A DNA stretch of 64,000 nucleotides from a candidate division KSB1 bacterium (GTDB taxonomy: Bacteria; Zhuqueibacterota; Zhuqueibacteria; JANLFK01; Oleimicrobiaceae). Shown in pieces: positions 13,265 through 64,000 of this stretch (its first letter is position 1; each line of letters begins with the position of its first letter). The translations under genes and the position numbers were made by a program. The stretch spans positions 1-64,000 of the forward strand of contig JANLFK010000013.1 of assembly GCA_024655945.1 (NCBI GenBank). The letters are read 5' to 3'. The notes beneath the pieces were generated by a model. It was not told the DNA's origin, made no database searches, and saw nothing but the letters and a program-made list of their open reading frames with translations.

Positions 13265-13792
13265 CTACTCGAGCACGGTCATCTTTTTCACCGCTGCCAG
13301 TCCCTCGGTGGTCAGCCGGCACAAATACACCCCAGCCGGCACCGCCCCTGCATCCCATTCCACCTTGTGCCGCCCCGCAGAGAGGCGCGCAGAGACCAGC
13401 ACCGCAACCTCCCTGCCCAACACATCGCACACCACCAGCCTGACAAGACCTGCGTGCGGCAGAGAGAATTCGATGGTCGTCGCCGGGTTGAACGGGTTCG
13501 GATAGTTCTGCGCAAGACTGAACTGCGTCGGCAAGTCGGTGGACCTGTCTTCGGCGGGCACTGACGTAATCATCTCCGACAACGGTCGTCTCCAGACGCC
13601 GCCACCCGGAGTCCCGGCAAAGAGATTCGTGCCGCCTGCCCCCTTGGGGGAGACCGCAAGAGCAGAAACAACGCCGCCGTAGGGACCGCTGGTCTGGACC
13701 CATTGGGCGTGCAAGGAAACGCCGGCGGCGCACAGGCAAGAGGCCGCCAAGAGGAATTCCCCGCAGCGGGCAGGTCGGAAAATGTTTTTCAT
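13265..13792 (-). CDS. Secreted protein with one beta-propeller-like repeat and a T9SS sorting domain
   Basis: 175 residues. The signal peptide is MKNIFRPARCGEFLLAASCLCAAGVSLHAQ in outline, followed by WVQTSGPYGGVVSALAVSP. A NLFAGTPGGGVWRRPLSEM segment then leads straight to a C-terminal Por-type sorting domain (SLAQNYPNPFNP, EFSLP, VCDVLGREV, LSAGRHKVEWDA, PAGVYLCRL). Relatives usually carry many NLFAGT/BNR-like repeats between signal and sorting domain; this one has about one, as if the array collapsed. ATG 13792 follows GGGAGGAACAG. It should be exported by Sec and then anchored or released through the type IX system. No catalytic function is visible. Confidence 0.8.
   Translation of the reverse strand: MKNIFRPARCGEFLLAASCLCAAGVSLHAQWVQTSGPYGGVVSALAVSPKGAGGTNLFAGTPGGGVWRRPLSEMITSVPAEDRSTDLPTQFSLAQNYPNPFNPATTIEFSLPHAGLVRLVVCDVLGREVAVLVSARLSAGRHKVEWDAGAVPAGVYLCRLTTEGLAAVKKMTVLE
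13569..13607. repeat. 39-bp junction repeat, copy 1 (second copy 14892-14930)
   Basis: The stretch encoding GGGVW-R-RPLSEMI matches 14892-14930 in the next T9SS gene with only four mismatches in 39 bases. The flanking propeller and sorting domains are far more diverged. It marks the seam between repeats and sorting-domain linker. Confidence 0.75.
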
Positions 13793-14590
13793 CTGTTCCT
13801 CCCATGAACGCACGTTTTTGTTAGGTTTTTGGTCATGTAGTAGCAATCGGTAGCACTCCCCTTGAGGGGTAGAGACCGTCCCTTAGGGGGCTTAGTGACG
13901 ATCCTCCCGTTGGTGCCGGCTATCCTACGGCACACGCCGTTAGCTCTGCTGGGGGTCCTCGGCTTCCCAATGTCTTCAAGTTATGGACTCCAGTCGCGGA
14001 ACGCCAATGGAGCCGCCACTACACAAGGAGACTCAGGACAGCGGCACCTGCACCTTGCCCTTGGCGCCGCGCGGTTCGCCGGGGGGTGCACGGACTTGCG
14101 ATCGAAAGAAATGCACACGTGTCGACACCGTTCTTGCGGGACCATGCAGAGATCAGCTCAGACCTCCGGGCGGTTAACCAACCGCATTCGCTCGGCCGCG
14201 AACACCTTGCGGAGATTACCTCTTCATGCACCTGGAAGCTCCATGAATGCCAGTGGCAGAGCCATAACCATCACGGCAAGCGAGTAGCGCTGCCCATCGC
14301 TCCTTTCTGCCCTGTTCCTCCACTGTCCCGCGGGCCTGAAAATGCCCACCTTCCTGCGCAAATGCGCGTGAGGAGCCTGTTAATTTATCCCACCATCCCC
14401 ACGCGCGGCGTACAACGTGCTGCGCGTTGACGCCGTGCGCTTTGCCGCCTATCAATAAATCAATTCTTTCCGCGGCAAACGGCCCGGGGCGAACCCGCAT
14501 TTCCCCTCAACACATGTGAGCGTCCTAACCACGCCTGTTGGCTGCAGTTGCCCGCCTGCGGGCCGAAACGGCGCCCTTCGTGCAGGCCCG
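13793..14590. other. Gene-free stretch between the two T9SS genes
   Basis: Nearly 800 bases with no convincing gene on either strand; the open frames here lack Shine-Dalgarno sites and protein-like composition. It holds small GC hairpins such as CCCCTTGAGGGG (13857-13868). I recognise no riboswitch, tRNA or promoter. It may be the remains of deleted propeller-repeat coding sequence, which is speculation. Confidence 0.5.
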
Positions 14591-29010: not shown

Positions 29011-29397
29011 TCAGTTCCTCATCACCCGGGTGATCTCGCGCACGATCCGCTCGCTGGTGGTGGGCTTGGTCACGATGCCGTCGGCCAGGCCCTGTGCCAA
29101 TGCTGCGCGGATGGCCTCGTCATCCTGGCGAAAGATGGTGAGCAGCAGCACCTTCATGCGTCCCTGTTTGCGCAGTGGATGCTCGCGCAGGTGCGCGGCG
29201 ATGGAGAGCCCCTCGTGGATGTTCATCTCGCTCATGACGTCCAACAAGAGCACGTCGGGCTGCTGCGCCTCTACGTTCCGCAGCGCCTCTTGTCGGTCCA
29301 GCGGACAGGAGGCCACCTCGAAGCCTGCCTCGCGCAGGTCCGCGCAGATGCCCTGACGCAGGAATTCCACGTCCTCAGCGTACAGTACCTTAGTCAT
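29011..29397 (-). CDS. Stand-alone response-regulator receiver protein
   Basis: 128 residues consisting of a receiver domain only. Acidic pocket VLYAEDVEF, phospho-acceptor Asp in VLLLDVMSE (~53), Thr in LLLTIF and Lys in VTKPTT are all present. It has no output domain, so it must act by contact, for example on the kinase or the sigma-54 activator encoded upstream. Its ATG overlaps the kinase stop by eight bases (ATGACTAA), indicating coupled translation. Confidence 0.93.
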   Translation of the reverse strand: MTKVLYAEDVEFLRQGICADLREAGFEVASCPLDRQEALRNVEAQQPDVLLLDVMSEMNIHEGLSIAAHLREHPLRKQGRMKVLLLTIFRQDDEAIRAALAQGLADGIVTKPTTSERIVREITRVMRN

Positions 29398-30778
29398 TGC
29401 TCGATGCTCCTCCCAGCGCGTAGGAAGGGAAGACCACCGTGAAGGTGGTTCCTTTCCCGGGCGCGCTCTCCACGTTCATGTGGCCGCCGTGGGCATGCAC
29501 GATGTGCTGCGCCAACGACAAGCCCAGGCCGGCGCCGGCCGGGTGCACCTTGGTGAAGCGCTTGCCACGATATCCCTGCTCGAAAATCCTCGGCAGTTCC
29601 TCGGGCCTGATGCCACAGCCGTTGTCGGCGCAGGTCACCACGATGCCGCCATTGGCCTGCGTCGCGCTTAGACGGATGCGGCCGGCGCCGTCTTCCACCG
29701 CATAGATGGCGTTCTCCAACAAGGTGCTGAACAGAAAATCCAGATCGTCCGGACGCCCCCACAACGAGGCGCCTCCGGTGCGCACCCGTACGTCCACGGC
29801 GATCCTCTTGTGGTCGATAAGCGGCTTCTTGGCCTGCACAACGTTCCGCAACAACTTGCGCAGATCCACCTCGCGCTTTTCGGTGAGAGCCAGCCACTGC
29901 GTGTCGCTCAGTGCCAGGCCCCGCATGGACTGCAGTGTGTACTCCTCCACCTGCCTGATGGCCGAGATAATCTGCCGATAGGATTTTTCCCGATCGCGGT
30001 TCGCCCGCAGGTTCTCGGCGGCGGTGACGATGACCTGGTACGGCATCAGCGTCTTGTGCAGGCCGATTTTCTTCTCCTCGGCGATTTTGCGCAAGGCATA
30101 CCGCAGAAAGAGGTTCTGCAGCTTGATGATGTTCTTGAGAATGAGAAAGCTGCTCAACTCGTCCGCCGAGAAGCGCAACCAATCCTGTTCTGCGAGCCTG
30201 GTGTATTTCCGCACCAGCAGGTCAAAGCTCAAGCTGATTTCGCCCATCAGGATGTCGGCAATCACCCGCGCCAAAAACTCCGTGGAGGCGATCAGACCCT
30301 TGATGTTCTCTTCGGTGAAGATCGGGACGTTCTTGCGGATGTCCTCGTCAATCTCCTCTCGCGGCAGACCGTATTGCTCGACAACCTCGAAAAAGCGATC
30401 CGACAACCTGGGACGGTCGACGGTGAGGAATTCGCCAATGGAGATGAGTCCCACCACGCGCTCGTAGACCACGATTGGCACCATGAAGCAGGTAAACCCA
30501 GACCAGCAGACGTAGCGCTGCGGTTTGGAGGTCTCGATGACCTTGCGCGCGTACTTCAGGTCGTCCACGTCGCAGAAGCGGTGGCGGATCTCCGCATTGT
30601 TGAAAAGGTAGTACTTGCAGATGCGGTGGCAAAAATGCCGCTCCGTGATCTGATGCGCCTCGTTGTCCCATACTGCCGTGGAACAGCGCGTGGTAGCGGT
30701 GTCCTCTTCGCAGATGTCGTTGAGCTTGTCGATCATGTCGCGCTCCTTGAGGCGCGCGGTGAAAATGTCCTCAGGCAT
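29390..30778 (-). CDS. PocR-domain sensor kinase-like protein without an obvious phospho-acceptor His
   Basis: 462 residues. A PocR sensory domain (~20-180) has a Cys/His-rich core (RHFCHRICKYYLFNN, HRFCD, YVCWSGFTCFMVPIVV) and VGLISIGEFL. A helical linker follows, then a complete HATPase_c: LLENAIYAVEDG (N box), ADNGCGI, GYRGKRF, GAGLGLSLAQHIV and GKGTTFTVVFP. The dimerisation region (EKSYRQIISAIRQVEEY) lacks the usual H-E/D-x-x-T/N-P box. PocR domains bind small hydrocarbons or related ligands in other systems. It overlaps the sigma-54 activator upstream (ATGCCTGA) and the receiver gene downstream, making a tightly coupled three-gene signalling unit. Confidence 0.85.
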   Translation of the reverse strand: MPEDIFTARLKERDMIDKLNDICEEDTATTRCSTAVWDNEAHQITERHFCHRICKYYLFNNAEIRHRFCDVDDLKYARKVIETSKPQRYVCWSGFTCFMVPIVVYERVVGLISIGEFLTVDRPRLSDRFFEVVEQYGLPREEIDEDIRKNVPIFTEENIKGLIASTEFLARVIADILMGEISLSFDLLVRKYTRLAEQDWLRFSADELSSFLILKNIIKLQNLFLRYALRKIAEEKKIGLHKTLMPYQVIVTAAENLRANRDREKSYRQIISAIRQVEEYTLQSMRGLALSDTQWLALTEKREVDLRKLLRNVVQAKKPLIDHKRIAVDVRVRTGGASLWGRPDDLDFLFSTLLENAIYAVEDGAGRIRLSATQANGGIVVTCADNGCGIRPEELPRIFEQGYRGKRFTKVHPAGAGLGLSLAQHIVHAHGGHMNVESAPGKGTTFTVVFPSYALGGASSND

Positions 30779-32237
30779 CGATATCCACCCCCTGCAGGTA
30801 CTTGTTGAAGATCATCCTGCTGATGCCCAAGGCTGCGGCTGCCTTGGACTTGTTGCCGGCGAAGAGTTCCAGCGCGGCTCTGCAATAGGCCTGCCGCACC
30901 TCGGCCACCACCTCGCGCAACGGCCGCGTTTCGCCACGAAAATCAAGCGCGCCCAGCCCTTTGCCCCGCACCGGCTCCAAGCGCAGGTCCTTCTCATCGA
31001 TCACCGTGCTGGAGGCGAGGGTGATGGTGCGCTCCAACAGGTTCTCCAACTCGCGCACGTTGCCCACCCAGGGGTAGCTCTGCAGGCGGGCAATCGCCTT
31101 CGGGGTGAAACTGTAGCGGATTCCGAGGCGCGCGCTGAAACGATTGAGGATGTGCTCCAAGAGGTCCGGGATGTCCTCTGGCCTCTCCCGTAGCGGTGGA
31201 ATGTAGATGGGAATCACATTCAGCCGATAGAACAGGTCCCGCCGGAACTGCCCCTTCTCGATGAGCTCTTCCAGGCTCTGGTTGGTGGCGCTGATCACGC
31301 GGATATCGGCCTTGACCTTCTCATTGCCGCCGACGCGCGTGAATTCCCCTTCCTGCAGTACGCGCAGCATCTTCACCTGCATGGCCAACGAGGTGTCGCC
31401 GATTTCGTCAAGGAAGAGCGTGCCCCCATTGGCCAGCTCGAACTTGCCGATCTTCTGGCTGATGGCCCCGGTGAAGGAACCCTTCTCGTGGCCGAAGAGC
31501 TCGCTCTCCAAGAGGGTCTCTGGCAGCGCGGCACAGTTGACATCCACAAAGACCTTGCCCCGGCGGCGACTGCGCTCGTGGATGAGCCAGGCAATGAGCT
31601 CCTTGCCGGTGCCCGACTCGCCTCGGATCAACACGTTGGCCTCCGACTGCGCCACTTTCTCCACCATGTCGCGCACTGCGGCCATGGCTGCCGAACGTCC
31701 CCAGACAATCTCCCGCTCCACTTTGGTGCGGGAAAAGAGCTCCTCCACGAGATTGGCTAAACTCTCGATGAGATCGAGCTCAAAAGTGTTGAGGATGCGG
31801 TCGTCGGCGCAGCCAAAGAAAAGCACGCCGTAGTCGCCTCCCCCCTCGGCTCTCTGCAGCCGCACGGCCAATCCTGAGCCGAGTCCTGGGTGCTCTGCGA
31901 GATTCTTGTAGGGAGTTGCGTGGATGGCGTTGAGACGGACAAAGCGCTCGTCCGGGTGGGCAGCCAACTCGGACGTGACCAGCGCCACCAGCTCGCGGCC
32001 CACCTCGGTGGAGCCGGGGGCCCGGAACCCGCGCGGCCGAGGACTCCCGTCGGCGCACTCCAAAGCGGAGCCGCGCCGTTCCAGAAAGAGGATGAACTTG
32101 TACCGCGTGATGGAGGCCAGCACGTCGAATCCCTGCTCCAGCATCTCGCGCGGGTCCTGCGTCTTGGACAGCGCATCGATGAACTGCTGCAGGTAGCCGG
32201 AGTATTTGTAGTCAAAGTCGTAGCGCTGCTGGGTCAT
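30771..32237 (-). CDS. Sigma-54-dependent transcriptional activator (GAF-like, AAA+, Fis HTH)
   Basis: 488 residues. The N-terminal GAF-like sensor is ~1-170. The AAA+ domain has Walker A GESGTGKE, a GSFTGA loop (the sigma-54 contact, normally GAFTGA), Walker B TLFLDEIGD and the arginine-finger region. The C-terminal Fis-type helix-turn-helix is NKSKAAAALGISRMIFNKYL. It should open sigma-54 promoters after a ligand or partner signal. It is translationally coupled to the PocR kinase and receiver protein. It is one of two such activators in view and so a candidate regulator of the sigma-54 promoters found here. No consensus promoter was seen directly upstream. Confidence 0.95.
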   Translation of the reverse strand: MTQQRYDFDYKYSGYLQQFIDALSKTQDPREMLEQGFDVLASITRYKFILFLERRGSALECADGSPRPRGFRAPGSTEVGRELVALVTSELAAHPDERFVRLNAIHATPYKNLAEHPGLGSGLAVRLQRAEGGGDYGVLFFGCADDRILNTFELDLIESLANLVEELFSRTKVEREIVWGRSAAMAAVRDMVEKVAQSEANVLIRGESGTGKELIAWLIHERSRRRGKVFVDVNCAALPETLLESELFGHEKGSFTGAISQKIGKFELANGGTLFLDEIGDTSLAMQVKMLRVLQEGEFTRVGGNEKVKADIRVISATNQSLEELIEKGQFRRDLFYRLNVIPIYIPPLRERPEDIPDLLEHILNRFSARLGIRYSFTPKAIARLQSYPWVGNVRELENLLERTITLASSTVIDEKDLRLEPVRGKGLGALDFRGETRPLREVVAEVRQAYCRAALELFAGNKSKAAAALGISRMIFNKYLQGVDIDA

Positions 32238-47137: not shown

Positions 47138-49753
<2,616 letters not shown>

Positions 49754-49784
49754 CTATCTTCACCCTCCTCAGAATGCAGTTGCG

Positions 49785-49812
49785 AAAAAGGCGAGAAGTC
49801 AACCTCCTCGCC
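49785..49812 (-). terminator. Rho-independent terminator of dnaK
   Basis: Minus strand GGCGAG (49812-49807) pairs with CTCGCC (49795-49790), then TTTTT. It lies ~50 bases after the dnaK stop. Confidence 0.8.
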
Positions 49813-49860
49813 CTCGCATCCATCCCACAATCACGCAAGCTCACATGCACATCGCCATCA

Positions 49861-51747
49861 TCACTTGCTCTTCTTGTCATCATCCACAACTTCATAGTCG
49901 GCCTCTTGCGCCTGCTCCCCGCCCTGGGCAGAAGCCCGTTGCTGAGCGGTGGTCCGCTCGTAGAGCTTGGAGGAGACGTCGGCCCAGACTTGGTTCAGGC
50001 CGTCAACCGCCGACTTGATTTCTTGCACGTTGTCGCCCCTTATGGCGTCTTTGACCCGCGACATGGCGCCCTCCAGACGGCTCTTGCTGTCGCTGTCGAT
50101 CTTGTCGCCCAGCTCCTTGAGGTTCTTTTCCGTCTGGTAGACGACGTTATCGGCCATGTTGCGGGCGTCCACTAATTCGCGACGCTTCCTATCCTCTGCT
50201 GCATGCTGCTGCGCGTCGCGCACCATCTTCTCCACCTCTTCCTTGGTCAGACCGGTAGAAGCCTCGATGCGGATGGACTGCTCCTTGCCGGTTGCCTTGT
50301 CGCGCGCGCTGACATTGAGGATGCCATTGGCGTCGATGTCGAAGGTGACCTCGATTTGGGGCACGCCGCGCGGCGCAGGGGGAATACCATCTAGGTGGAA
50401 GCGGCCGAGCGTACGATTGTCGATCGCCATGGGCCGCTCGCCCTGCAGCACGTGAATCTCCACCGAGGTCTGCCCGTCGGCAGCCGTCGAGAAGATCTCC
50501 GTCTTCCGCGTGGGGATGGTGGTGTTCTTCTCGATGAGCTTGGTGAACACCCCACCCAGCGTCTCGATACCAAGGGACAGCGGCGTCACGTCCAGGAGCA
50601 GCACGTCGGAGACCTCACCGGCCAACACCCCGCCCTGAATGGCCGCGCCTACGGCGACGACCTCGTCCGGGTTCACGCCCTTGTGGGGCTCCTTGCCAAA
50701 GAGCTCGCGCACAATCTGCTGTACCTTAGGCATGCGCGTGGCGCCACCCACCAGCACCACCTCGTCGATGTCGGCGGGCGTCAGACCTGCATCCTTCAAG
50801 GCAATGCGGCACGGCTCAATGGTCCTCTGGAAAAGGTCCTCACACAGCTGCTCGAACTTGGCCCGTGTCAGGGTCATGTTCAGATGCTTGGGCCCTGTGT
50901 CCGTCGCCGTAATGAACGGCAAGTTGATGTCGGTCTGCGTCACTGTGGAGAGCTCACACTTGGCCTTTTCTGCCGCTTCCTTGAGGCGCTGCAAGGCCAT
51001 GGGGTCCTTGGACAGATCCACCCCTTCCTGCTTCTTGAACTCGCTCACAATCCAATCGATGATGCGCTGATCAAAGTCATCGCCGCCCAAATGGGTGTCG
51101 CCATTGGTCGCCTTGACTTCGAAGACGCCGTCGCCGATCTCCAGAATGGAAATGTCGAAGGTGCCGCCGCCCAGGTCGAACACGGCGATCTTCTCGTCCT
51201 TCTTCTTGTCCAGGCCGTACGCTAACGAGGCCGCAGTGGGCTCGTTGATGATGCGCCGCACCTTGAGGCCCGCAATCTCGCCCGCCTCTTTGGTGGCGTT
51301 GCGCTGGCTGTCGTTGAAGTAGGCGGGCACCGTGATCACCGCCTCGGTGACCTTCTCGCCTAAATAGTCCTCAGCAGTCTGCTTCATCTTCTGCAGAATC
51401 ATAGCGGAGATCTCTTGCGGCGAGTACTCCTTGTCGCCGATCTTGACACGGGCGACGTCGTTCTTGCCACGGACGACCTTGTACGGCACCTGCTGGCTTT
51501 CATCCAGGACCTCGTCATAGCGCCGGCCCATGAAGCGCTTGATGGAATAGACGGTGTTTTCCGGGTTGGTTATCGCCTGACGCTTGGCGACCTGCCCCAC
51601 CAATCGTTCGCCGGTCTTGGTGAAGGCGACCTCCGACGGCGTGGTGCGCGACCCTTCCTGGTTGGGAATAACCACCGGCTCGCCGCCTTCCATCACCGCC
51701 ACGCAGGAGTTGGTCGTCCCCAAATCAATGCCGATTATCTTTCCCAT
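49861..51747 (-). CDS. dnaK: DnaK (Hsp70) chaperone
   Basis: 628 residues. The ATPase domain starts [20 protein letters not shown] and has [16 protein letters not shown] and [14 protein letters not shown]. The linker is [19 protein letters not shown] substrate-binding beta domain and helical lid follow, ending [10 protein letters not shown]. It binds exposed hydrophobic peptides, assisted by DnaJ and GrpE encoded upstream. The promoter region above contains a near-consensus sigma-54 site and a TGACAG palindrome. GGAGGTTTGACTC precedes the ATG. Confidence 0.98.
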
Positions 51748-51818
51748 GAGTCAAACCTCCTTTTGCCCATTTTGTGATGTTCCCTCACCACGAGGCTTGC
51801 GCCATCGAGGGAGGAACA

Positions 51819-51835
51819 TTCAAATGTTGTGCCAC
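51819..51835 (-). promoter_or_regulatory. Near-consensus sigma-54 promoter of dnaK
   Basis: Minus strand GTGGCAC-AACAT-TTGAA. The -24 TGGCAC and 5-base spacing are exact, but the -12 element is TTGA instead of TTGC. The -12 GC is normally critical, so activity is uncertain. A start near 51807 would leave a 60-base leader, the same as for the hsp20 at 55662. Confidence 0.5.
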
Positions 51836-51932
51836 AGCTAGTGATAGCCCCTGGCGTCTCTGCCGCTCCTTGAAATTGCAAGAGTTAGCCACCAGCTCGT
51901 GCGCCGCGATGCGCCCCCTATTCCTTGCCAAT

Positions 51933-51947
51933 CTGTCACGATGACAG
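51933..51947. promoter_or_regulatory. CTGTCA-N3-TGACAG palindrome upstream of dnaK
   Basis: A perfect inverted repeat, CTGTCA (51933-51938) and TGACAG (51942-51947), centred ~106 bp above the -24 element. The same hexamers occur above both hsp20 promoters, so it is a candidate enhancer site for a sigma-54 activator. Confidence 0.6.
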
Positions 51948-51965
51948 TCTACCCTGGCAGAGTTC

Positions 51966-52229
51966 TCAGGGCAGGGGGCAGTCGGAGCTGTCAGTGCTCG
52001 AACCCCCGCCCTTGCCTGAATCGTTCTTGCCGCCGGACTTCTGCCCTTTGTTGCGGTAGTCGGTGATGTAAAAACCACTGCCTTTGAAGATCAGGCCATT
52101 TCCCCCGCCTATCAGGCGGCGGACCCTGCCACCGCACCGTGGGCACGTCTTCACAGGCTCGTCCTTGATGGACTGAAAGACCTCAAACTGATACTCACAC
52201 TGTGCGCAGCGATACTCGTAGGTCGGCAT
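51966..52229 (-). CDS. FmdB-family zinc-ribbon protein
   Basis: 87 residues. It starts MPTYEYRCAQCEYQFEVFQ and has CPRCG (two CxxC knuckles, ~8-11 and ~29-32) and GNGLIFKGSGFYITDYRNK, typical of FmdB-like regulatory or ribosome-associated small proteins. The tail is Gly/Ser-rich. It sits between htrA and dnaK. Confidence 0.92.
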   Translation of the reverse strand: MPTYEYRCAQCEYQFEVFQSIKDEPVKTCPRCGGRVRRLIGGGNGLIFKGSGFYITDYRNKGQKSGGKNDSGKGGGSSTDSSDCPLP

Positions 52230-52285
52230 CTGCTCGCTCCCTCCGTTTCCTCGGCCCTTCCTCTGCCCGGATGGGTGTCAATCGT

Positions 52286-53794
52286 TCACTCTTCTGGCAC
52301 CGGTATGGAAATGAACAGGTGCCGGTTCTGGTAGTAGATGCGCAGCAGGAGGACGTCGCCTGGGCTCAACTTGTCCAGCTCCTCCTGAAGCTCGCGCACG
52401 TTGCGCACGGGCACCTGGTTGGCCTCTTTGATCAGCTGGCCAGGGCGCAGCCCACTGCGCGCTGCGATGCTGCCGCGCTCCACCGCGGTGACCAGCACGC
52501 CCTCTTGGCCCTTGAGCCCATAGCGCGCCGCCAGCTCGTCAGTCAGGTCCTGGACGCTGAACCCCAGCCTGGTGGAAGATTTCCTCGCCCCGCCCACCTT
52601 GACGCTGCCTTCTTCGGGCAGCGTGCCCAACTTGACCGACACTTGGCGAGTATTCCCCTTGCGGTTGATGGTCAGAGTAACCCGCGTGCCCGGGGCAGTA
52701 GATGCAATGCGCGTGGAGAGCTGGTCCGGGTTGTCCACTGGTGTGCCATCGACCGCAAGGATGATGTCGCCCTCTTTGATGCCCGCTTTCTCCGCGGGGC
52801 TCCCCTGGCTCACCTCGGACACCACCACGCCGCGCGGGGAGTCCATCTTCAGCGCCTTGGCCATGGCAGCATCCACCGGCTGAATGATCACGCCCAACCA
52901 GCCACGGGTCACCTCGCCTTTCTCGATGAGCTGTTCCATGACCCATTTCGCGGTGTTGATGGGGATGGCGAAGCCGATACCCACATTGGCCTGCCCGACG
53001 ATGGCGGTGTTGATGCCCACCAACTCGCCATAGAGGTTCACCAGCGGCCCACCGCTATTGCCGGGGTTGATGGCCGCATCGGTTTGAATAAAGTTGAAGT
53101 ACCTGATCTCGCTCCCCTGGATGGGGAGGTTCGCTCGCCCCTTGGCGCTGACAATGCCCTTGCTGACGGAGCATTCCAGCTGTGGGCTGAACGGTGTGCC
53201 AAAGGCCAGCACTTCCTCACCGATGCGCAGCTTGTCAGAGTCGCCAAACGGCGCTGTGGCGAACTTTTTCCCGTCCTGAATCTGCAGCACCGCCACGTCG
53301 GTCTTCGCGTCGCTGCCGACGACTTTCGCCTTGTACTCGTCCTTGCCCAGCAAAACCTTCACCTGGACGGCCTCAGCCACTACGTGGTGGTTGGTGAGCA
53401 CGTACCCTTCCGGCCGCACTACCACGCCCGAGCCCAAAACCTGCGCTAACTCCTCCTGCTGCTCGGGGAAGTCGAAGAAGCGCCGGAAGAACTCATCCCC
53501 GAAGAACTCGGCAAACGGGCTGCGGCGCCTCACCTTGCTCTCGCTGATGATGGTGACCACCGCCGGGCTTACCCTGTCGACAATATCCACGTACAGGTCG
53601 TTGATGGCCTCGGCCAGCGCGCGCCTGTCCAAATTGAGCGGCTGTGCCTGGCCAATGGCGGTTGTGGCTGGCTGCAGGGCCTTCTCCTCGGCCAGACCAT
53701 GCTTGGTCCAATCGAAGTTGGCCGCCACCAGCAGTCCCACAACGACGCCAAGCACGATGCCGCCAATCAGCACTCCCCTGGTCTTCCGCGTCAT
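52286..53794 (-). CDS. DegP/HtrA-type periplasmic serine protease
   Basis: 502 residues. An N-terminal signal anchor (VLIGGIVLGVVVGLLVAA) precedes a trypsin-like domain with the triad His in VLTNHHVVAEA, Asp in KTDVAVLQI and Ser in INPGNSGGPLVN. Two PDZ domains follow (GWLGVIIQPVDAAMAKALKM; LGFSVQDLTDELAARYGLKGQEG). It degrades or refolds damaged envelope proteins. ATG 53794 with GAGGAAAAGG was preferred over a longer frame. It is encoded between dnaJ and fmdB, tying envelope and cytoplasmic protein quality control together. Confidence 0.96.
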   Translation of the reverse strand: MTRKTRGVLIGGIVLGVVVGLLVAANFDWTKHGLAEEKALQPATTAIGQAQPLNLDRRALAEAINDLYVDIVDRVSPAVVTIISESKVRRRSPFAEFFGDEFFRRFFDFPEQQEELAQVLGSGVVVRPEGYVLTNHHVVAEAVQVKVLLGKDEYKAKVVGSDAKTDVAVLQIQDGKKFATAPFGDSDKLRIGEEVLAFGTPFSPQLECSVSKGIVSAKGRANLPIQGSEIRYFNFIQTDAAINPGNSGGPLVNLYGELVGINTAIVGQANVGIGFAIPINTAKWVMEQLIEKGEVTRGWLGVIIQPVDAAMAKALKMDSPRGVVVSEVSQGSPAEKAGIKEGDIILAVDGTPVDNPDQLSTRIASTAPGTRVTLTINRKGNTRQVSVKLGTLPEEGSVKVGGARKSSTRLGFSVQDLTDELAARYGLKGQEGVLVTAVERGSIAARSGLRPGQLIKEANQVPVRNVRELQEELDKLSPGDVLLLRIYYQNRHLFISIPVPEE

Positions 53795-53861
53795 AGCCTT
53801 TTCCTCGGTTGTTTCGCAATGCACGCTCTGGTGCGCCCCAGGCCTGTTTGGTCGGGCACGC

Positions 53862-54923
53862 TTAGTCTTTGACCTTCACCCTCACGTATTGGTTCCCTTG
53901 GCGTCCATCGGTCTTCAGCCCAAGACCGGTCAGGCGGAACACTGCTCCGTCCTGCGTGCCAGGGGGGATTCTCAGTTCCACCTTGCGGCCATCGATGGTG
54001 CGCACGCGCAGGCGCGTGCCCTGCTCGGCATGCCTCCGGTCGATGTACACGTCGCAGTAGACGTCGGCACCACGCACATCAAAGAAGCCCTTGCCCCGCA
54101 CGCGGAGTACCACCAAGAGGTCACCTGGCGCAGCCCGGGGTCCGCTCGGTTCGCCTTGGCCGCGCAGGCGGAGCTTCAGGCCATCATGGGCGCCAGGCGG
54201 AATGCGCACCGCATAGGTCTTGCGAACCCTCTGCACCCCGCGACCAGCACATGCGCGACACACCTTCTTGAACACCACTCCACGCCCCAAGCATCTGGGG
54301 CACGGCCGGCTTACGGAAAAGAACCCTTGACTGGAAATGACGTGTCCGGTCCCGCCGCAGTTGGGGCAAGTTGTGGGATCCTCCCCGCCGCGGCCTTCAC
54401 AATGGGAACACCTCTCGTCTTTGTCTACGGTGAAACTCTGCTTGCCACCCTGCTGTGCCACCTCTGGCGCCACTTCCAGTTCCACCTGGATGTCGCCGGC
54501 GGCCTCCTCTCTCTCGCGCCCTCTGAACAGGTCACTGTGGTCGAAGAATTGGCTGAGCAGATCGCCCAGGCCACCGAATCCCCCAAAATCCTCGAAGGAG
54601 AAGCGACGCGCCCCGGTGCGGCGGCCACCGCCAAAAATGCTGGCCAGGTCGGAAAAGTCAAAGCCTGCGCCCTGAAACCTGCGCGCACCATCAGCATCGA
54701 ACGCCCCCAAACGCCGCATCTGGTCATATTGCGCACGCTTCTTCGGATCGCTCAGCACGGCGTGCGCCTCAGAAATCTCCTTGAACTTTTCTTCGGCCGC
54801 CTTGTTGCCGGGATTCGCATCGGGATGATACTGCTTGGCCAGCCGCCGATAGGCCTTCTTGATCTCATCGGCGGTAGCGTTCTCGCTCACTCCGAGTATT
54901 TCGTAGTAATCCCGCTTGGGCAT
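53862..54923 (-). CDS. dnaJ: DnaJ (Hsp40) co-chaperone
   Basis: 353 residues. J domain with YHPDANP (HPD, ~33), Gly/Phe-rich linker, and four zinc repeats [32 protein letters not shown]. Two substrate-binding beta domains follow. It stimulates DnaK ATPase. ATG 54923 follows the grpE stop; a GTG six bases earlier overlaps it. It is one operon unit with grpE. Confidence 0.97.
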
Positions 54924-54925
54924 AG

Positions 54926-55549
54926 TCACAGCTCACCTTCGCGCCCCGCTCGCCCGACCTTGACCTTGGCGGCCCGCAGCACCTGGCCATCTACCCTGTA
55001 GCCAGGCTGCCACACTTCCAGAAGCAGCCCATCCAACTCTGGCGAACATGGCTCGGTCGCCACGGCCTCATGCAGCTCGGGATCGAAACGCTCTCCGACC
55101 TCGCCGAAACGCTGCAGGCCGCTGTCGGTAAGAACGCGCCGCAGCTTCTCGGCAACCTGACGCAGGCCAGTTGCTGCACCGCCTTGCTCCTGTCCGTGGT
55201 AAGCGAGCAGATTGTCGAAATCGTCCAACACCGGCAATAGGGCCCTGAGCACCTCGCGCCGGCCCGCAGCGGCGAAATCGGCGCGCTCACGTTCCACACG
55301 CCGTTTGTAGTTGACAAAGTCCGCCTGGGTACGACGCAGTTGATCAAGGTAAGTGGCAGCGCTCTCCGCCAGCTTCTGTTCCGCAGGGTGCTCGCTTTCG
55401 CCGCCGACAATCTGCACAGGGATGATCTCCTCACGCGCCTCCTCGCCGCTGCCCTGGGCCCCGGCGTCTACGGAGATGCGGGCCTCTTCTGCGCTCGGCA
55501 CCATCTGTTCGTCATTTTCTCGCATAACCAGTCTTTCGCATTTCGCCAT
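54926..55549 (-). CDS. grpE: GrpE nucleotide-exchange factor
   Basis: 207 residues. An acidic variable N-terminus is followed by a long coiled coil ([22 protein letters not shown]) and the beta domain with [13 protein letters not shown] and [21 protein letters not shown]. It releases ADP from DnaK. The first ATG (55549) is only 11 bases after a strong hairpin and has no clear Shine-Dalgarno; a second ATG at MRENDEQM nine codons in is an alternative start. Confidence 0.96.
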
Positions 55550-55560
55550 CTATACAAAAC

Positions 55561-55591
55561 GTGAGTACCCCATTTGAGGTGGGGTACTCAC
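55561..55591. promoter_or_regulatory. Perfect 12-bp inverted repeat in front of grpE
   Basis: GTGAGTACCCCA (55561-55572) and TGGGGTACTCAC (55580-55591) with a 7-base loop, then GTTTTGT on the minus strand, 11 bases before the grpE ATG. It could terminate hsp20 mRNA, bind a repressor, or act as an RNA thermometer. It is not CIRCE. Confidence 0.6.
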
Positions 55592-55661
55592 GAAGCCCTC
55601 ATTCACGCGGCGGGAACGCCGCATCGGTCCAGAAGGACAGCCGCTGTTGTCGCACTCAGGA

Positions 55662-56105
55662 TCACTGGACGCTGATCGGGATTTCCTTGGGCCGCGCCTC
55701 CTCCTTCTTCGGCAGCTCGATCCTGAGCACACCGTCCTTGTAGGAGGCCTTCACCTTCGAAGCGTCCACCGAGGCCGGCAGGCTGAAGGACCGACGGAAG
55801 CTCCCGTACACACGCTCCAGCCGATGGTAGTTCTCCTGCTTCGCCTCCTTCTCCTGATGCTTCTCCCCCTTGAGCATCAGCACGTTGTCCTGGATGGAGA
55901 TCTTGATGTCATCCTTCTTCATGCCGGGAACTTCGGCGGTCACAATCACCGCATCCTCGGTCTCGCAAATGTCCACGCTGGGACTCCACATGCCGGTCTC
56001 GACCTCACGGCCCGGGAACCCATGGAAGAAGTCATCGATGAAGCGATCCATGTCCTCCTGGAGCCGATACAGGTCACGCCACGGACGCCATCTGACGATT
56101 GCCAT
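55662..56105 (-). CDS. Hsp20 small heat-shock protein (proximal copy)
   Basis: 147 residues. An N-terminal arm (RWRPWRDLYRLQEDMDRFIDDFFHGF) precedes an alpha-crystallin domain (WSPSVDICETEDAVIVTAEVPGMKKDDIKISI...DGVLRIELPKKE) and a C-terminal PISVQ extension with an I-x-V-type tail. It holds unfolding proteins for DnaK/ClpB. The gene has a perfect sigma-54 promoter ~70 bp upstream with TGACAG repeats above it, and it is followed by grpE-dnaJ. Confidence 0.96.
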   Translation of the reverse strand: MAIVRWRPWRDLYRLQEDMDRFIDDFFHGFPGREVETGMWSPSVDICETEDAVIVTAEVPGMKKDDIKISIQDNVLMLKGEKHQEKEAKQENYHRLERVYGSFRRSFSLPASVDASKVKASYKDGVLRIELPKKEEARPKEIPISVQ

Positions 56106-56175
56106 GACCTCTCACCTCCTGCTTTTGCTTGATTCCCTCTATCTTGAACCCCCGCACATGTTCGCCCCACGTAGC

Positions 56176-56192
56176 TGCAACAAGCGTGCCAA
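56176..56192 (-). promoter_or_regulatory. Sigma-54 promoter of the proximal hsp20
   Basis: Minus strand TTGGCAC-GCTTG-TTGCA matches the YTGGCACG-N4-TTGCW consensus at every fixed position. The start is expected near 56164, ~60 bases before the ATG, in the 344-base gene-free stretch 56106-56449. Confidence 0.85.
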
Positions 56193-56253
56193 CAAGCAGA
56201 TCGCCGCGGCAAGCTTGGCACTTTCAAAGCCTTAGGTCACCATGCGGATTTCT

Positions 56254-56319
56254 CTGTCCTGCAAGGGGAGCATGACAGAAGTGGCAGGTCGCCGCCTTCG
56301 CCTGACAGACAGGTGACAG
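56254..56319. promoter_or_regulatory. TGACAG/CTGTC repeats above the hsp20 sigma-54 promoter
   Basis: TGACAG at 56273-56278, 56303-56308 and 56314-56319, the last two as a direct repeat with N5 spacing, and CTGTC at 56254-56258. They lie ~65-125 bp above the -24 element, the usual place for enhancer sites. Confidence 0.6.
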
Positions 56320-56449
56320 ACTTGAAGGCAGACTCGAAGGAAAAACGCTACGCCTGCGCCCTCTGGACCGATCGCAACCGACTAAGGCCAGCGGAGAGGC
56401 TGAAGGAGACGTGGCTGCACCCCATGGTGCAGCCCGCACAACCCCAAGC

Positions 56450-57127
56450 TCAGTCCCGCGAGCTGCGCAGCATGATCAAGCGGAGCAGCTGCACCAGGGC
56501 CACCGCGGTGGCAGCGATGTAGGTGAGCGCTGCGGCGCTCAACACCTTCCGCGCCCCTCCCACCTCGCTTTCGCTCAGGAAGCCAGCCGACTGCAGACGC
56601 GCTAAGGCCCGCCTGCTGGCATCGAACTCTACCGGCAGGGTCACCACCTGGAAAAGCACCGCCCCGGCAAAGAACAGGATTCCCAGAGTCATCAAACTGG
56701 GGATGCTCAGCAGCAGACCCACCAAGAAGAGCGGAATCGCCAGCGAGGAGCCAAAGTTCGCCAAGGCCACGATGCTGTGGCGGAGACGCAAGGGTAGGTA
56801 CCCGGTGGCGTGCTGCTCAGCGTGTCCTGTCTCATGGGCTGCCACCCCCAAAGCCGCTATCGAATCAGAGGCGTAGACACCCGAAGAGAGCCGGAGAACC
56901 TTTCTCACCGGATCGTAGTGGTCCGAAAGGGTGCCGCTCGTCTCTTCCACCGTCACATCGTTAATATTGCTCGCTCGAAGCAGTCGGTTTGCCACCTGTG
57001 CGCCCGTAAGGCCGGCGGCGGCGCGGATTTGGCTGAAACGTTGGTAGGTAGAGCGCACCTTGTACTGGGCGTACAAGGCCAGCGCCATCGCAGGTAGCAG
57101 GAGCCAATCGTAGGGTGAATAGAACAT
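56450..57127 (-). CDS. YugP-type zinc metallopeptidase
   Basis: 225 residues. An N-terminal membrane helix (WLLLPAMALALYAQY) and the zinc motif HETGHAEQHATGY (HExxH, ~95-102) are followed by two membrane helices (LAIPLFLVGLLLSI; LGILFFAGAVLFQVVTLPVEFDASRRAL), typical of the YugP/DUF neutral zinc protease family. The PVEFDASRRA segment is the family signature. It lies between the two hsp20 genes, consistent with membrane-protein quality control. Confidence 0.92.
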   Translation of the reverse strand: MFYSPYDWLLLPAMALALYAQYKVRSTYQRFSQIRAAAGLTGAQVANRLLRASNINDVTVEETSGTLSDHYDPVRKVLRLSSGVYASDSIAALGVAAHETGHAEQHATGYLPLRLRHSIVALANFGSSLAIPLFLVGLLLSIPSLMTLGILFFAGAVLFQVVTLPVEFDASRRALARLQSAGFLSESEVGGARKVLSAAALTYIAATAVALVQLLRLIMLRSSRD

Positions 57128-57295
57128 CGCCGCGTTACCTCCTCTCGGTTAGGGTCAGCAAGGTTTGGGATTTCTTGGCCACTGGTGCTCATTTGACTGT
57201 CGCTTCGTGCTTCGAGTTCCTTTTTCCAGAAAACAGTGAGGGGCCCCTGCCCACCGTGCGGCCCAGCGGGACCCCTCTGTGCGCAACTCTTCTGC

Positions 57296-57724
57296 TCAGT
57301 CGGCAACCACTTCGATGGACTTCGGCTTGGCCGCCTCGCTCTTGTGCAGGATGACCTTGAGCACGCCATCACGCAGCTGTGCCTCGATGCGCGCCGGGTC
57401 GATGGTGGACGGCACGTGCAGGCTGCGGCAGAAACGGCCGTAGACGCGCTCGCTCAGGTACGGCGTCTGCACCGTCTCCTTTTTCTTCTCGCCGCTGATG
57501 ACGATCAGACCGTCGTGGTAGTTGACCTTGACGTCTTCCTTCTTCACGCCCGGCAGGTCCAGCGAGACAATCCACTCACTTTCCGTCTCAACCACATCCA
57601 TGCGGGGAGCCCAGTTGCATTCATCGATCTTCTCGGATTCGCCCAGGCCCATCTCGTTCAACCAGCGCGCCCACCGCTCTGCGCGGCGAAGTGCTCTCTC
57701 GCGCAACACATCCCAATCTTGCAT
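57296..57724 (-). CDS. Hsp20 small heat-shock protein (distal copy)
   Basis: 142 residues. The alpha-crystallin domain includes WAPRMDVVETESEWIVSLDLPGVKKEDVKVNYHDGLIVISGEKK and RIEAQLRDGVLKVILHKSE, ending KSIEVVAD with an I-x-V tail. The ATG at 57724 is favoured because AAGGAG lies six bases before it; one at 57730 directly abuts the site. A perfect sigma-54 promoter and a TGACAG palindrome lie upstream. It is the more divergent of the two hsp20 copies. Confidence 0.95.
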   Translation of the reverse strand: MQDWDVLRERALRRAERWARWLNEMGLGESEKIDECNWAPRMDVVETESEWIVSLDLPGVKKEDVKVNYHDGLIVISGEKKKETVQTPYLSERVYGRFCRSLHVPSTIDPARIEAQLRDGVLKVILHKSEAAKPKSIEVVAD

Positions 57725-57776
57725 AGCCATCTCCTTCACCTCCTCTTTTCGTGATGACCACTTCGCCCCATGGAGG

Positions 57777-57793
57777 TGCAACCCCTGTGCCAA
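57777..57793 (-). promoter_or_regulatory. Sigma-54 promoter of the distal hsp20
   Basis: Minus strand TTGGCAC-AGGGG-TTGCA, a full match of the TGGCAC-N5-TTGC core. Start near 57765, ~40 bases before the ATG. Confidence 0.85.
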
Positions 57794-57892
57794 GGCGCGC
57801 GGTGCTCACTGAGCAGGTCGCAAGGCTTGCATAATCAGTGCTCTAAAGTCTTGGCGTCCCCCTTGTCGATGTCGCTGCCAATGGTGCCACAG

Positions 57893-57909
57893 TGACAGCC
57901 TTCCTGTCA
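57893..57909. promoter_or_regulatory. TGACAG-N5-CTGTCA palindrome above the distal hsp20
   Basis: A perfect inverted repeat, TGACAG (57893-57898) and CTGTCA (57904-57909), centred ~109 bp above the -24 element, almost the same distance as the palindrome above dnaK. Confidence 0.65.
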
Positions 57910-57946
57910 GGCCGCTTGCCGTGCCATCAGCAGGGGGAGGCTCCTT

Positions 57947-58846
57947 TCAAAACGCCGCGAGAAGGTTCCTCTCCACCCCAAGGATGCGGAGGAACTCCTT
58001 TGCCACCGGTGACAAATATTTGCCTTTCCGAATGGCCACCCCGTAGCCCAGCTCGCCAAGGTACTCAGTCACCGGGATCATCGCCAAAGGTTGGGCATCT
58101 TGGACAGACAGGGAAATGCCTGAGATAATGGTCACGCCAAGCCCTCTGCGCACGTACTCCTTGATGACCTCGGCTCCCCCGGCCTCAATTCTGACCGTGG
58201 GCCACAAGCCGGCGCGTTCGAACACCTCGTCGATGCACCGCCTGATGGAGTTGCAACGCTCGTACAGGATGAGGGGCTCCTGGGCAATCTCCCGGAGTGT
58301 GACTCGGGCGCGCCCGGCAAGACGATGGCCCGGCGCAGTGCAGAGGAAGATGTCGTAGCGGGCGATCTCAAAGAAATCCATGCCGGCGAAATCGTTCCAG
58401 GAAGCCGTGATGCCAAAGTCGATTTCCCCGGCCAGGACCATAGCCAGGATCTCACTGTCCAGGATGCGGTTCATGATGGTCACCTGCACGTCCGGGTGGC
58501 GCCTCTGGAACTCCTCGACGCACTGCGGCAATCGGTACATCATGAACCCTCGGTAGGCAGCAAGAGCACTCCGTCTGCTCCCCTTGTGCGCGAGCTCGAC
58601 AAAGTGTGCCTCCAAGTCGTCCAGTTTCCGGATGACGGCGGCGGCATACTCGAACAGGACCTTCCCGTTTTCGGTGAGCTGGATGCCCTTGCCCACGCGT
58701 TCATAGAGCTTGACCCCCAGCTCAGCCTCCAACGCCTTCACCTGGTGGCTGATGGCCGACTGGCCGACGTTCAAGCACCGGGCGGCGAGGGAAAAGCTGT
58801 TGTAGCGCGCACTCCAATAGAAACCCGCCAGCTGTTGCAACTGCAT
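57947..58846 (-). CDS. LysR-family transcriptional regulator (CysB-like)
   Basis: 299 residues. The N-terminal winged HTH is SLAARCLNVGQSAISHQVKALEAELGVKLYER. A C-terminal periplasmic-binding-like effector domain follows (VQVTIMNRILDSEILAMVLAGEIDFGITA; LGVTIISGISLSVQDAQPLAMIPV), resembling CysB/Cbl. It probably senses a small metabolite and is transcribed away from the unknown gene and OPT transporter, with a LysR-type operator between. Ligand unknown. Confidence 0.93.
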   Translation of the reverse strand: MQLQQLAGFYWSARYNSFSLAARCLNVGQSAISHQVKALEAELGVKLYERVGKGIQLTENGKVLFEYAAAVIRKLDDLEAHFVELAHKGSRRSALAAYRGFMMYRLPQCVEEFQRRHPDVQVTIMNRILDSEILAMVLAGEIDFGITASWNDFAGMDFFEIARYDIFLCTAPGHRLAGRARVTLREIAQEPLILYERCNSIRRCIDEVFERAGLWPTVRIEAGGAEVIKEYVRRGLGVTIISGISLSVQDAQPLAMIPVTEYLGELGYGVAIRKGKYLSPVAKEFLRILGVERNLLAAF

Positions 58847-62814: not shown

Positions 62815-62857
62815 AGTGGTACAAATCCCCCATGTCCGCGGCACGGGCCGTACCACT
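62815..62857 (-). terminator. Hairpin at the end of the truncated activator gene
   Basis: AGTGGTAC (62857-62850, minus) pairs perfectly with GTACCACT (62822-62815), with further GC pairing inside. It overlaps the stop codon and lacks a U-tract. Confidence 0.4.
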
Positions 62858-64000
62858 CACGGCGGGGCGATGCGGTATTTGACTAACTTTTCTCGCAGTG
62901 TCTTGCGGGCAATGCCCAAGATGCGCGCCGCTTGCGATTTGTTGTGCCCCACGGCGCGCATGACCTGCTCGATGTAGCGCCGCTCCAGTTGCTCGAGGGT
63001 CAAGTGCTCGCTGTCCGCTACCAGGGCCTTCCCCTCCAGCGGAGAAAAGGGCACGAGGTGAAAGGTGAGATAGGGTCCGCGCTCGAGAATCACGGCCCGT
63101 TCGATGATGTTTTGGAGCTCCCTGACGTTGCCGGGATAATCGTAGGCGACAAGCCTCTGCTGCGCGCGCGGGTCAATGCCTTTGAGGGGCTTCTGGTACC
63201 TCCTGGCAAAGCGCCTGACAAAGAAATCGGCCAACAGGGGGATATCCTCCCGACGCTGACGGAGGGGAGGAAGTGCGATTTCAACCACGTTGATCCGGTA
63301 GTAAAGATCTTCGCGGAACCTGCCCAGGTTAATCTCCTGGCGCAAGTCGCGGTTGGTGGCAGTAATCAGGCGCACGTCAACCTGCAAGGTGTCGTTACCA
63401 CCCACCCGCTGGAAAGTCCCCAATTCGATGACCCGCAAAAGCTTGGCCTGGACGGCGAGGCTCATGTCGCCTATTTCGTCCAAGAAGAGCGTTGAGCCAT
63501 GGGCAAACTCGAACTTGCCCATTTTGCGAGAACATGCGCCAGTGAAGGCTCCTTTCTCGTGGCCGAACAGCTCGCTCTCCACCAGAGCGTCGGGAAGTGC
63601 AGCGCAGTTGACCGTCACCATGGGACATGTGGCGCGCTGGCTCTTGCGGTGGATTGCTCGGGCCACCAGCTCTTTGCCCGTGCCACTCTCGCCGGCAATG
63701 AGCACGGGCACATCGCGGGGGGCCACCTCGTCGATGAGCTGGCGCACGGCTTGCATCGCCGGCGACTGCCCCAGCAGTTCAGGCTCCCCTTCCTGCCCTC
63801 GCACCTGGAAGCCAATCAGCCGTTGCCTGGCTTGTTTTCCCTGGCCGCCAGTCATGCGTTGCTCCTGTGGGAGGAGCCGCTCCAGGCACATCACCCCCTG
63901 GCTCATGAGCACACGCAAGGCGTCCAGCTCGCGAGCGCCATAGTCGGTGCCATCTCCCTTTTGCCCCAGACTGAGCACGCCCACCAGGAGGCCTTTCACG
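62857..64000 (-). CDS. Sigma-54-dependent activator, N-terminus outside window
   Basis: The gene runs off the window end; ~380 residues are visible. They begin in a GAF-type sensor (LLVGVLSLGQKGDGTDYGARELDALRVLMSQ). The AAA+ domain has Walker A GESGTGKE, GAFTGA and TLFLDEIGDM. The C-terminal Fis HTH is GHNKSQAARILGIARKTLREKLVKY. It should drive sigma-54 promoters and is the nearest activator to the hsp20/dnaK sigma-54 sites, so it is a candidate for binding the TGACAG elements; this is inference from position only. Confidence 0.94.
   Translation of the reverse strand, partial: VKGLLVGVLSLGQKGDGTDYGARELDALRVLMSQGVMCLERLLPQEQRMTGGQGKQARQRLIGFQVRGQEGEPELLGQSPAMQAVRQLIDEVAPRDVPVLIAGESGTGKELVARAIHRKSQRATCPMVTVNCAALPDALVESELFGHEKGAFTGACSRKMGKFEFAHGSTLFLDEIGDMSLAVQAKLLRVIELGTFQRVGGNDTLQVDVRLITATNRDLRQEINLGRFREDLYYRINVVEIALPPLRQRREDIPLLADFFVRRFARRYQKPLKGIDPRAQQRLVAYDYPGNVRELQNIIERAVILERGPYLTFHLVPFSPLEGKALVADSEHLTLEQLERRYIEQVMRAVGHNKSQAARILGIARKTLREKLVKYRIAPP

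Follow-up and report, generated by a model that had tools for sequence, protein, structure and literature searches.

Upstream of the distal small heat-shock gene of this locus (hsp20-2) stand a sigma-54-type -24/-12 element and, farther out, a perfect inverted repeat. The question is whether the two place the gene under the control of an enhancer-binding protein (EBP), and whether it shares that control with the other chaperone genes of the window (the whole stretch of 64,000 nucleotides that was analyzed). We propose that hsp20-2 very probably has a sigma-54 promoter with a predicted EBP array and belongs to a single chaperone regulon, the activator of which is most likely an EBP encoded beside lptE.

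Promoter and upstream sites of hsp20-2

On the minus strand, the elements run toward hsp20-2 in the order LysR stop codon (57947), palindrome (57909-57893), promoter (57793-57777), AGGAGG (57744-57739) and ATG (57730). The upstream sequence TTGGCACAGGGGTTGCACC carries the -24 element TGGCAC from 57792 and TTGCA to 57777, thus combining, close 5' of a gene, the -24 TGGCAY and -12 TTGC/TTGA elements of sigma-54-dependent promoters at a 5-bp spacing, with the motif and coordinates that the initial annotation had given. The transcription start, placed 12 nt past the -12 GC, would be at ~57766, and because the ATG is at 57730 the predicted leader is ~36 nt, in agreement with the ~40 bases first estimated in front of this gene, the product of which is a Pfam HSP20 protein. 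The genome has one copy of rpoN, and no sigma-70-like sites were found across 56100-58000. Genome-wide, TGGCAC-N5-TTGC had 24 matches compared to 8 for the reversed control, and a single exact match carries only modest weight. A putative zinc metallopeptidase gene 3' of hsp20-2 is possibly co-transcribed with it.

The palindrome TGACAG-N5-CTGTCA is exactly as initially described, its center lying 109 bp from the T of the -24 element. It is the unique exact copy in the 3.94-Mb genome; one mismatch adds just one further genomic place, below the count for the reversed control. By itself the palindrome is no evidence of a regulon, and we rejected it as a repeated 17-bp operator because the genome contains no second exact copy. 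It forms part of an array of four TGNCA cores at -117/-105/-97/-88 relative to the -24 element, within the range of ~80-150 bp where upstream activator sites of sigma-54-dependent promoters lie.

Conservation in a sister genome

Phylogenetic footprinting of this intergenic region had been suggested with the initial annotation, and the comparison with the sister genome G002 finds both the promoter and the upstream cores retained. The G002 promoter, TGGCACGTTGCTTGCA (L045:14548), is a perfect TGGCAC-GTTGC-TTGC in the equivalent position, and the G002 cores lie at -117/-104/-96/-87, each within 1 bp of its counterpart, a coincidence that none of 5000 random placements equaled. Across the 130-bp flank the two genomes share 81 identical columns (shuffled mean 76, maximum 82). 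Because they are conserved within DNA that is otherwise unalignable, the promoter and the palindrome stand above chance, and because the core positions coincide between the genomes, we read the palindrome as two cores of a longer array. The first reading of the palindrome as a position for an EBP is supported by the conserved upstream sites, with the correction that the 17-bp palindrome is not itself the binding unit. The LysR-type regulator gene 5' of hsp20-2 (57947-58846, minus strand) is absent from the aligned G002 stretch. At the first hsp20 gene of the window (hsp20-1), the cores lie 127, 116, 95 and 86 bp from the -24 element in both genomes.

Chaperone cluster of the window

The chaperone genes of the window belong to a syntenic cluster (47138-57127, minus strand) that is found in much of the class and comprises genes for an M48-type peptidase, hsp20, grpE, dnaJ, degP, dnaK, clpB, a TPR protein and moxR (Table 1). 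As in a sigma-54 chaperone regulon of the FCB group, -24/-12 promoters are present in the window at dnaK, hsp20-1 and hsp20-2; clpB probably belongs to the dnaK operon. In contrast, no CIRCE inverted repeat was found within the window when up to three mismatches were allowed, so that the window gives no sign of an HrcA/CIRCE system. The initial annotation considered hsp20-2 the clearest single example of the proposed regulon, which holds for the promoter, as hsp20-2 has the better -24/-12 element, but not for the operator, as dnaK has a perfect dyad at 51947-51933. A dyad with the 3-bp spacer is absent at hsp20-1 in the window (best match, three mismatches), and a spacer-4 variant takes its place. 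A combined pattern that joins a half-site to TGGCAY-N5-TTGC over 84-114 bp matches the genome exactly twice, in front of the window's two hsp20 genes, and its control has no match.

Table 1 Features of the chaperone locus and their coordinates in the window.
Feature	Coordinates	Strand	Basis
Cores 1 and 2 of the predicted activator array, palindrome TGACAG-N5-CTGTCA, TGACAGCCTTCCTGTCA	57893..57909	-	Sequence; -117/-105, conserved G002 counterparts at -117/-104
Regulon dyad CTGNCA-N3-TGNCAG with 1 mismatch, CTGTCACTGTGGCAC, cores 2 and 3	57884..57898	-	G002 carries CTGCCAGCTTGGCAT at matching distance (105 vs 106)
Core 4, TGGCAG, -88 from -24	57875..57880	-	-87 in G002
hsp20-2 sigma-54 -24/-12 promoter TTGGCAC-AGGGG-TTGCA (TTGGCACAGGGGTTGCA)	57793-57777	-	Sequence; conserved in G002
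Predicted 5' leader	57731..57766	-	Inferred from sigma-54 promoter geometry
Ribosome-binding site AGGAGG, 8 nt from ATG	57739..57744	-	Sequence
hsp20-2, small heat-shock protein, 144 aa, controlled gene	57296..57730	-	ORF; Pfam HSP20 1.8e-22; G002 orthologue 89% identical
Putative zinc metallopeptidase, 3' of hsp20-2	56450..57127	-	Pfam Zn_peptidase_2; cluster synteny
hsp20-1 activator array, TGNCA cores -127/-116/-95/-86	56273..56318	-	G002 positions identical
hsp20-1 sigma-54 -24/-12 promoter, TGGCACGCTTGTTGCA	56176..56191	-	Sequence; G002 = TGGCACGCAGCTTGCA
hsp20-1, first gene of hsp20-grpE-dnaJ-degP	55662..56105	-	ORF; Pfam
grpE	54926..55549	-	ORF; synteny
dnaJ	53862..54929	-	ORF; synteny
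degP/htrA-like protease	52286..53824	-	Synteny
dnaK perfect activator dyad CTGTCATCGTGACAG, 113 bp 5' of -24	51933..51947	-	
dnaK sigma-54 -24/-12 promoter, TGGCACAACATTTGAA	51819..51834	-	Class-wide 28/30
dnaK	49861..51747	-	
clpB, 3' of dnaK	47138..49753	-	Synteny

Promoter and operator across the class and in Bacteroidia

We searched for the same elements 5' of the dnaK genes of 30 class genomes. In 28 of these, TGGCA[CT]-N5-TTG was matched exactly (shuffles, mean 0.12, maximum 1). The common upstream unit was a 15-bp dyad, CTGNCA-N3-TGNCAG, which 24 genomes carried with no more than one mismatch (shuffle mean 0.04), a count that is partly circular because the operator was defined on this same dnaK set. 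The dyad occurred with spacer 3 only, mostly ~90-145 bp 5' of the -24 element. G3, C5, G11 and C13 are invariant among the aligned sites, an invariance inflated by the choice of sites for their similarity to the motif. One of the 30 genes (L077, G008) has the operator and lacks the -24/-12 element.

Independent tests of the operator come from Bacteroidia and from the hsp20, grpE and dnaJ units. The promoter-operator pair was also found in the class at units led by hsp20, grpE and dnaJ. Among the gene starts within the syntenic cluster, the promoter was present at 19/21 dnaK, 5/6 hsp20, 2/5 grpE and 6/17 dnaJ, and at none of the neighboring cluster genes (0/17 moxR, 0/17 TPR, 0/8 M48-type, 0/8 clpB and 0/4 batD). 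Across 40 genomes the combined pattern had ~57 sites compared to 15 for the reversed pattern, with ~12 dnaK, ~13 hsp20, two grpE and one clpB as the recognizable genes 3' of them, although such counts are not independent events because the genomes are related. The remaining sites are miscellaneous and probably include chance hits. Single cases, which may be due to chance, lie 5' of genes for a PrkA-like kinase and for a trigger-factor-like protein, the latter at 324 bp (L147 in G034; L129 in G033). With the pattern used, no sites were found at hsp20 genes from other groups (L036-L044) or at a third hsp20 of the genus, and therefore the regulon does not include every hsp20.

In a sample of 30 Bacteroidia dnaK genes, TGGCA[CT]-N5-TTG, typically ending in TTGA, was present in 25 (shuffles, 0.17). 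The dyad was found with up to two mismatches in 21 (1.1 in shuffles), again with spacer 3 favored, ~80-90 bp 5' of the promoter. At the level of sequence, this is an independent replication of the class-defined operator, which Bacteroidota thus have in common with the class, with more degenerate sites in Bacteroidia. The regulon suggested by the initial annotation is thereby supported, throughout the class at dnaK and further chaperone units and in Bacteroidia at dnaK.

The arrangement also appears in a reduced Bacteroidota genome, G067 (0.49 Mb, 22% GC), which has one rpoN and one EBP, of the lptE-clade type. Upstream of its dnaK, CTGCCATTTAGTCAG lies 61 bp 5' of TGGCACAAGTATTGAA and is the best-ranked site of the genome; groES has a weaker site, among the next three ranks. 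A weak -24/-12-like site was also seen 5' of lon in G067 (L320, L340-L365).

Candidate activator

The window genome encodes ~19 complete EBPs, four of which (L080, L088, L090 and L091) have reciprocal orthologues throughout the class. L090 (G000:C10, ~60.2-61.2 kb) adjoins lptE and has the AAA+ and Fis-type HTH domains of a bacterial EBP: a Sigma54_activat AAA+ domain (PF00158), a lid, a linker and a Fis-type HTH (PF02954), with no receiver domain in Pfam. Its orthologues precede lptE in other genomes of the class and in Neomarinimicrobiota. In Bacteroidota, the lptE-linked EBP often adjoins groESL, as in the order miaB-EBP-lptE-TPR-secG-groES-groEL of Fibrisoma, an order that several other Bacteroidia have too. 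The lptE-linked EBPs form a single clade (support 1.0) and have the recognition helix SERT[LI]YRKI in common.

Most Bacteroidia that share the operator encode 1-4 EBPs. Where two-EBP genomes were examined, the second protein combines a receiver with an AAA+ domain, lacks an HTH in Pfam (two scanned) and, in the sequences inspected, ends directly after the AAA+ domain. Elimination of the others leaves the lptE-linked EBP as the strongest candidate for binding the operator, and by this comparative reasoning the activator of hsp20-2 is most likely the receiver-less EBP at G000:C10, encoded outside the window. It is singled out from the class-wide L080, L088 and L091 by the Bacteroidota and G067 arguments only.

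The activator is probably not among the EBPs of the window. That at 30771-32237 was rejected as genus-specific; it belongs to a genus-specific pair (29390-32237, minus strand) of a GAF/AAA+/HTH EBP and a PocR-domain sensor kinase, 3' of genes for a lipoprotein and a FadL/TodX-like outer-membrane protein. The other, a GAF-type EBP (62857-63999, minus strand), runs past the window edge.

Proposed mechanism and alternatives

The sigma-54 holoenzyme waits at -24/-12 promoters until an EBP loops in and opens them by ATP hydrolysis, as is general for this family. We propose that sigma-54 RNA polymerase would transcribe hsp20-2 from the -24/-12 element at 57793-57777, and that the lptE-linked EBP may assemble on the phased TGNCA array (dyad CTGNCA-N3-TGNCAG) ~85-120 bp upstream, contact the polymerase via DNA looping and open the promoter through ATP hydrolysis. 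A single regulon would then comprise hsp20-2, hsp20-grpE-dnaJ-degP and dnaK-clpB. The predicted signal is protein-folding stress. Since the EBP has no receiver, control by a bound partner is the simplest guess, for instance an envelope factor or a chaperone that unfolded protein titrates away; such a partner could restrain the EBP as PspA restrains PspF. We know of no PspA-like inhibitor of the lptE-linked EBP.

The promoter and array could be real with another EBP as their activator, a reading that we consider unlikely. It would assign the array to the receiver-containing L080 or L088, to the PspF-like L091 or to one of the window EBPs; the first three have reciprocal best hits throughout the class, and the EBP at 62857 lies just 5 kb from hsp20-2. 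However, the EBP at 30771 is confined to the genus, that at 62857 has a reciprocal match (45%) in just one class genome out of four, and the few EBPs of same-operator Bacteroidia, with solely the lptE-linked type in G067, argue for the latter. A real though minor possibility is that the regulon serves envelope or surface stress instead of heat or folding stress. The sigma-54 promoters of Flavobacterium psychrophilum, some of which serve envelope functions, are responsive to blood agar and to osmotic stress (PMC9723704), the candidate EBP adjoins lptE, and some CYTQ-lipoprotein genes have -24/-12 sites. Against this, the recognized targets are mainly cytosolic chaperones, and the operator evidence at the CYTQ-lipoprotein genes is weak.

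Very improbable is the view that the palindrome, a perfect 6-bp inverted repeat located 38 bp past the LysR stop codon, is a terminator or attenuator hairpin of that gene next to a genuine promoter. We rejected it as a LysR terminator because it has no T-run, no terminator-like site was found there, it folds no better than shuffles (z -0.84), and G002 keeps the cores at equal distances where LysR is absent. It is scarcely credible that the elements match by chance and that hsp20-2 is transcribed from another promoter. The core motif alone has 24 genomic matches against 8 in its control and the palindrome is exact at one place only, but such a coincidence would have to include the conservation of promoter and array in G002, the restriction of combined sites to the two hsp20 genes, the replication across the class and in Bacteroidia, and the lack of sigma-70-like sites around hsp20-2.

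Relation to known systems

Sigma-54 control of chaperone genes is known in outline from two studies. In the first, mapped transcription starts of F. psychrophilum place sigma-54 (SM4) -24/-12 promoters at dnaK, grpE-dnaJ, groESL, lon, htpG and clpB, and in its accessible text none of the three EBPs is assigned as activator and no operator is given (PMC9723704). The second, a 2025 survey, predicts such promoters at dnaK, dnaJ, grpE, groEL/ES and ibpA in Bacteroidota and Planctomycetota; its accessible text uses promoter matrices only and does not mention KSB1, Calditrichota, an upstream operator or an activator (PMC12316311). As in F. psychrophilum, several core units of chaperone genes have -24/-12 promoters in the genomes of the class, which belong to a different phylum-level group and add hsp20 units. 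The operator, the activator assignment and the extension to the class appear to be new in the literature searched, which was short of most subscription papers. The lptE-linked EBP is thus a named candidate for the activator left open by the Flavobacterium start-site map.

The L090-type EBP has a counterpart in architecture in PspF of Escherichia coli, a receiver-less AAA+ EBP with a Fis-type HTH that acts at sigma-54 stress promoters. It differs from PspF in lineage, operator and targets, and in an extra linker between the AAA+ lid and the HTH. Individual heat-shock genes are controlled by an EBP or by sigma-54 at lonD of Myxococcus xanthus (HsfA/HsfB), where HsfA is a phosphorelay response regulator, and at ibpB of E. 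coli; these are not a conserved core-chaperone regulon. In other bacteria the same chaperone genes are controlled by HrcA/CIRCE or sigma-32, that is, by a repressor or a dedicated sigma-70-type factor in contrast to the enhancer-dependent control predicted here.

It seems rather likely that the FCB group shares a sigma-54 heat-shock regulon governed by one receiver-less, lptE/groESL-linked EBP via CTGNCA-N3-TGNCAG arrays. This would be a third ancestral way of controlling core chaperones, next to sigma-32 and HrcA/CIRCE, and old enough to persist in a reduced 0.49-Mb genome. Textbooks usually link sigma-54 to nitrogen, motility and the cell surface, whereas in Bacteroidia and throughout this class it appears to drive core chaperones via one operator and one predicted activator. 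One gene deletion and one binding assay would thus suffice to test heat-shock control in both.

Other observations in the window

A further -24/-12 element, TGGCACAGCCTTTGCA, lies at 35104-35089 (minus strand), with a near-perfect sigma-70-like TTGACA-N17-TATATT close behind it, 5' of the gene for a CYTQ-type lipoprotein (34855-33824). A -24/-12 site is also present at its homologues in three further genomes of the class. Because the operator evidence is weak both here and at the homologues, we rejected the lipoprotein as a firm regulon member, despite its promoter. Elsewhere in the window, the protein encoded at 13265-13846 (minus strand) has a C-terminal NYPNPFNPATTIEFSL-type sorting-like domain, which we take to be typical of secreted proteins of the FCB group.
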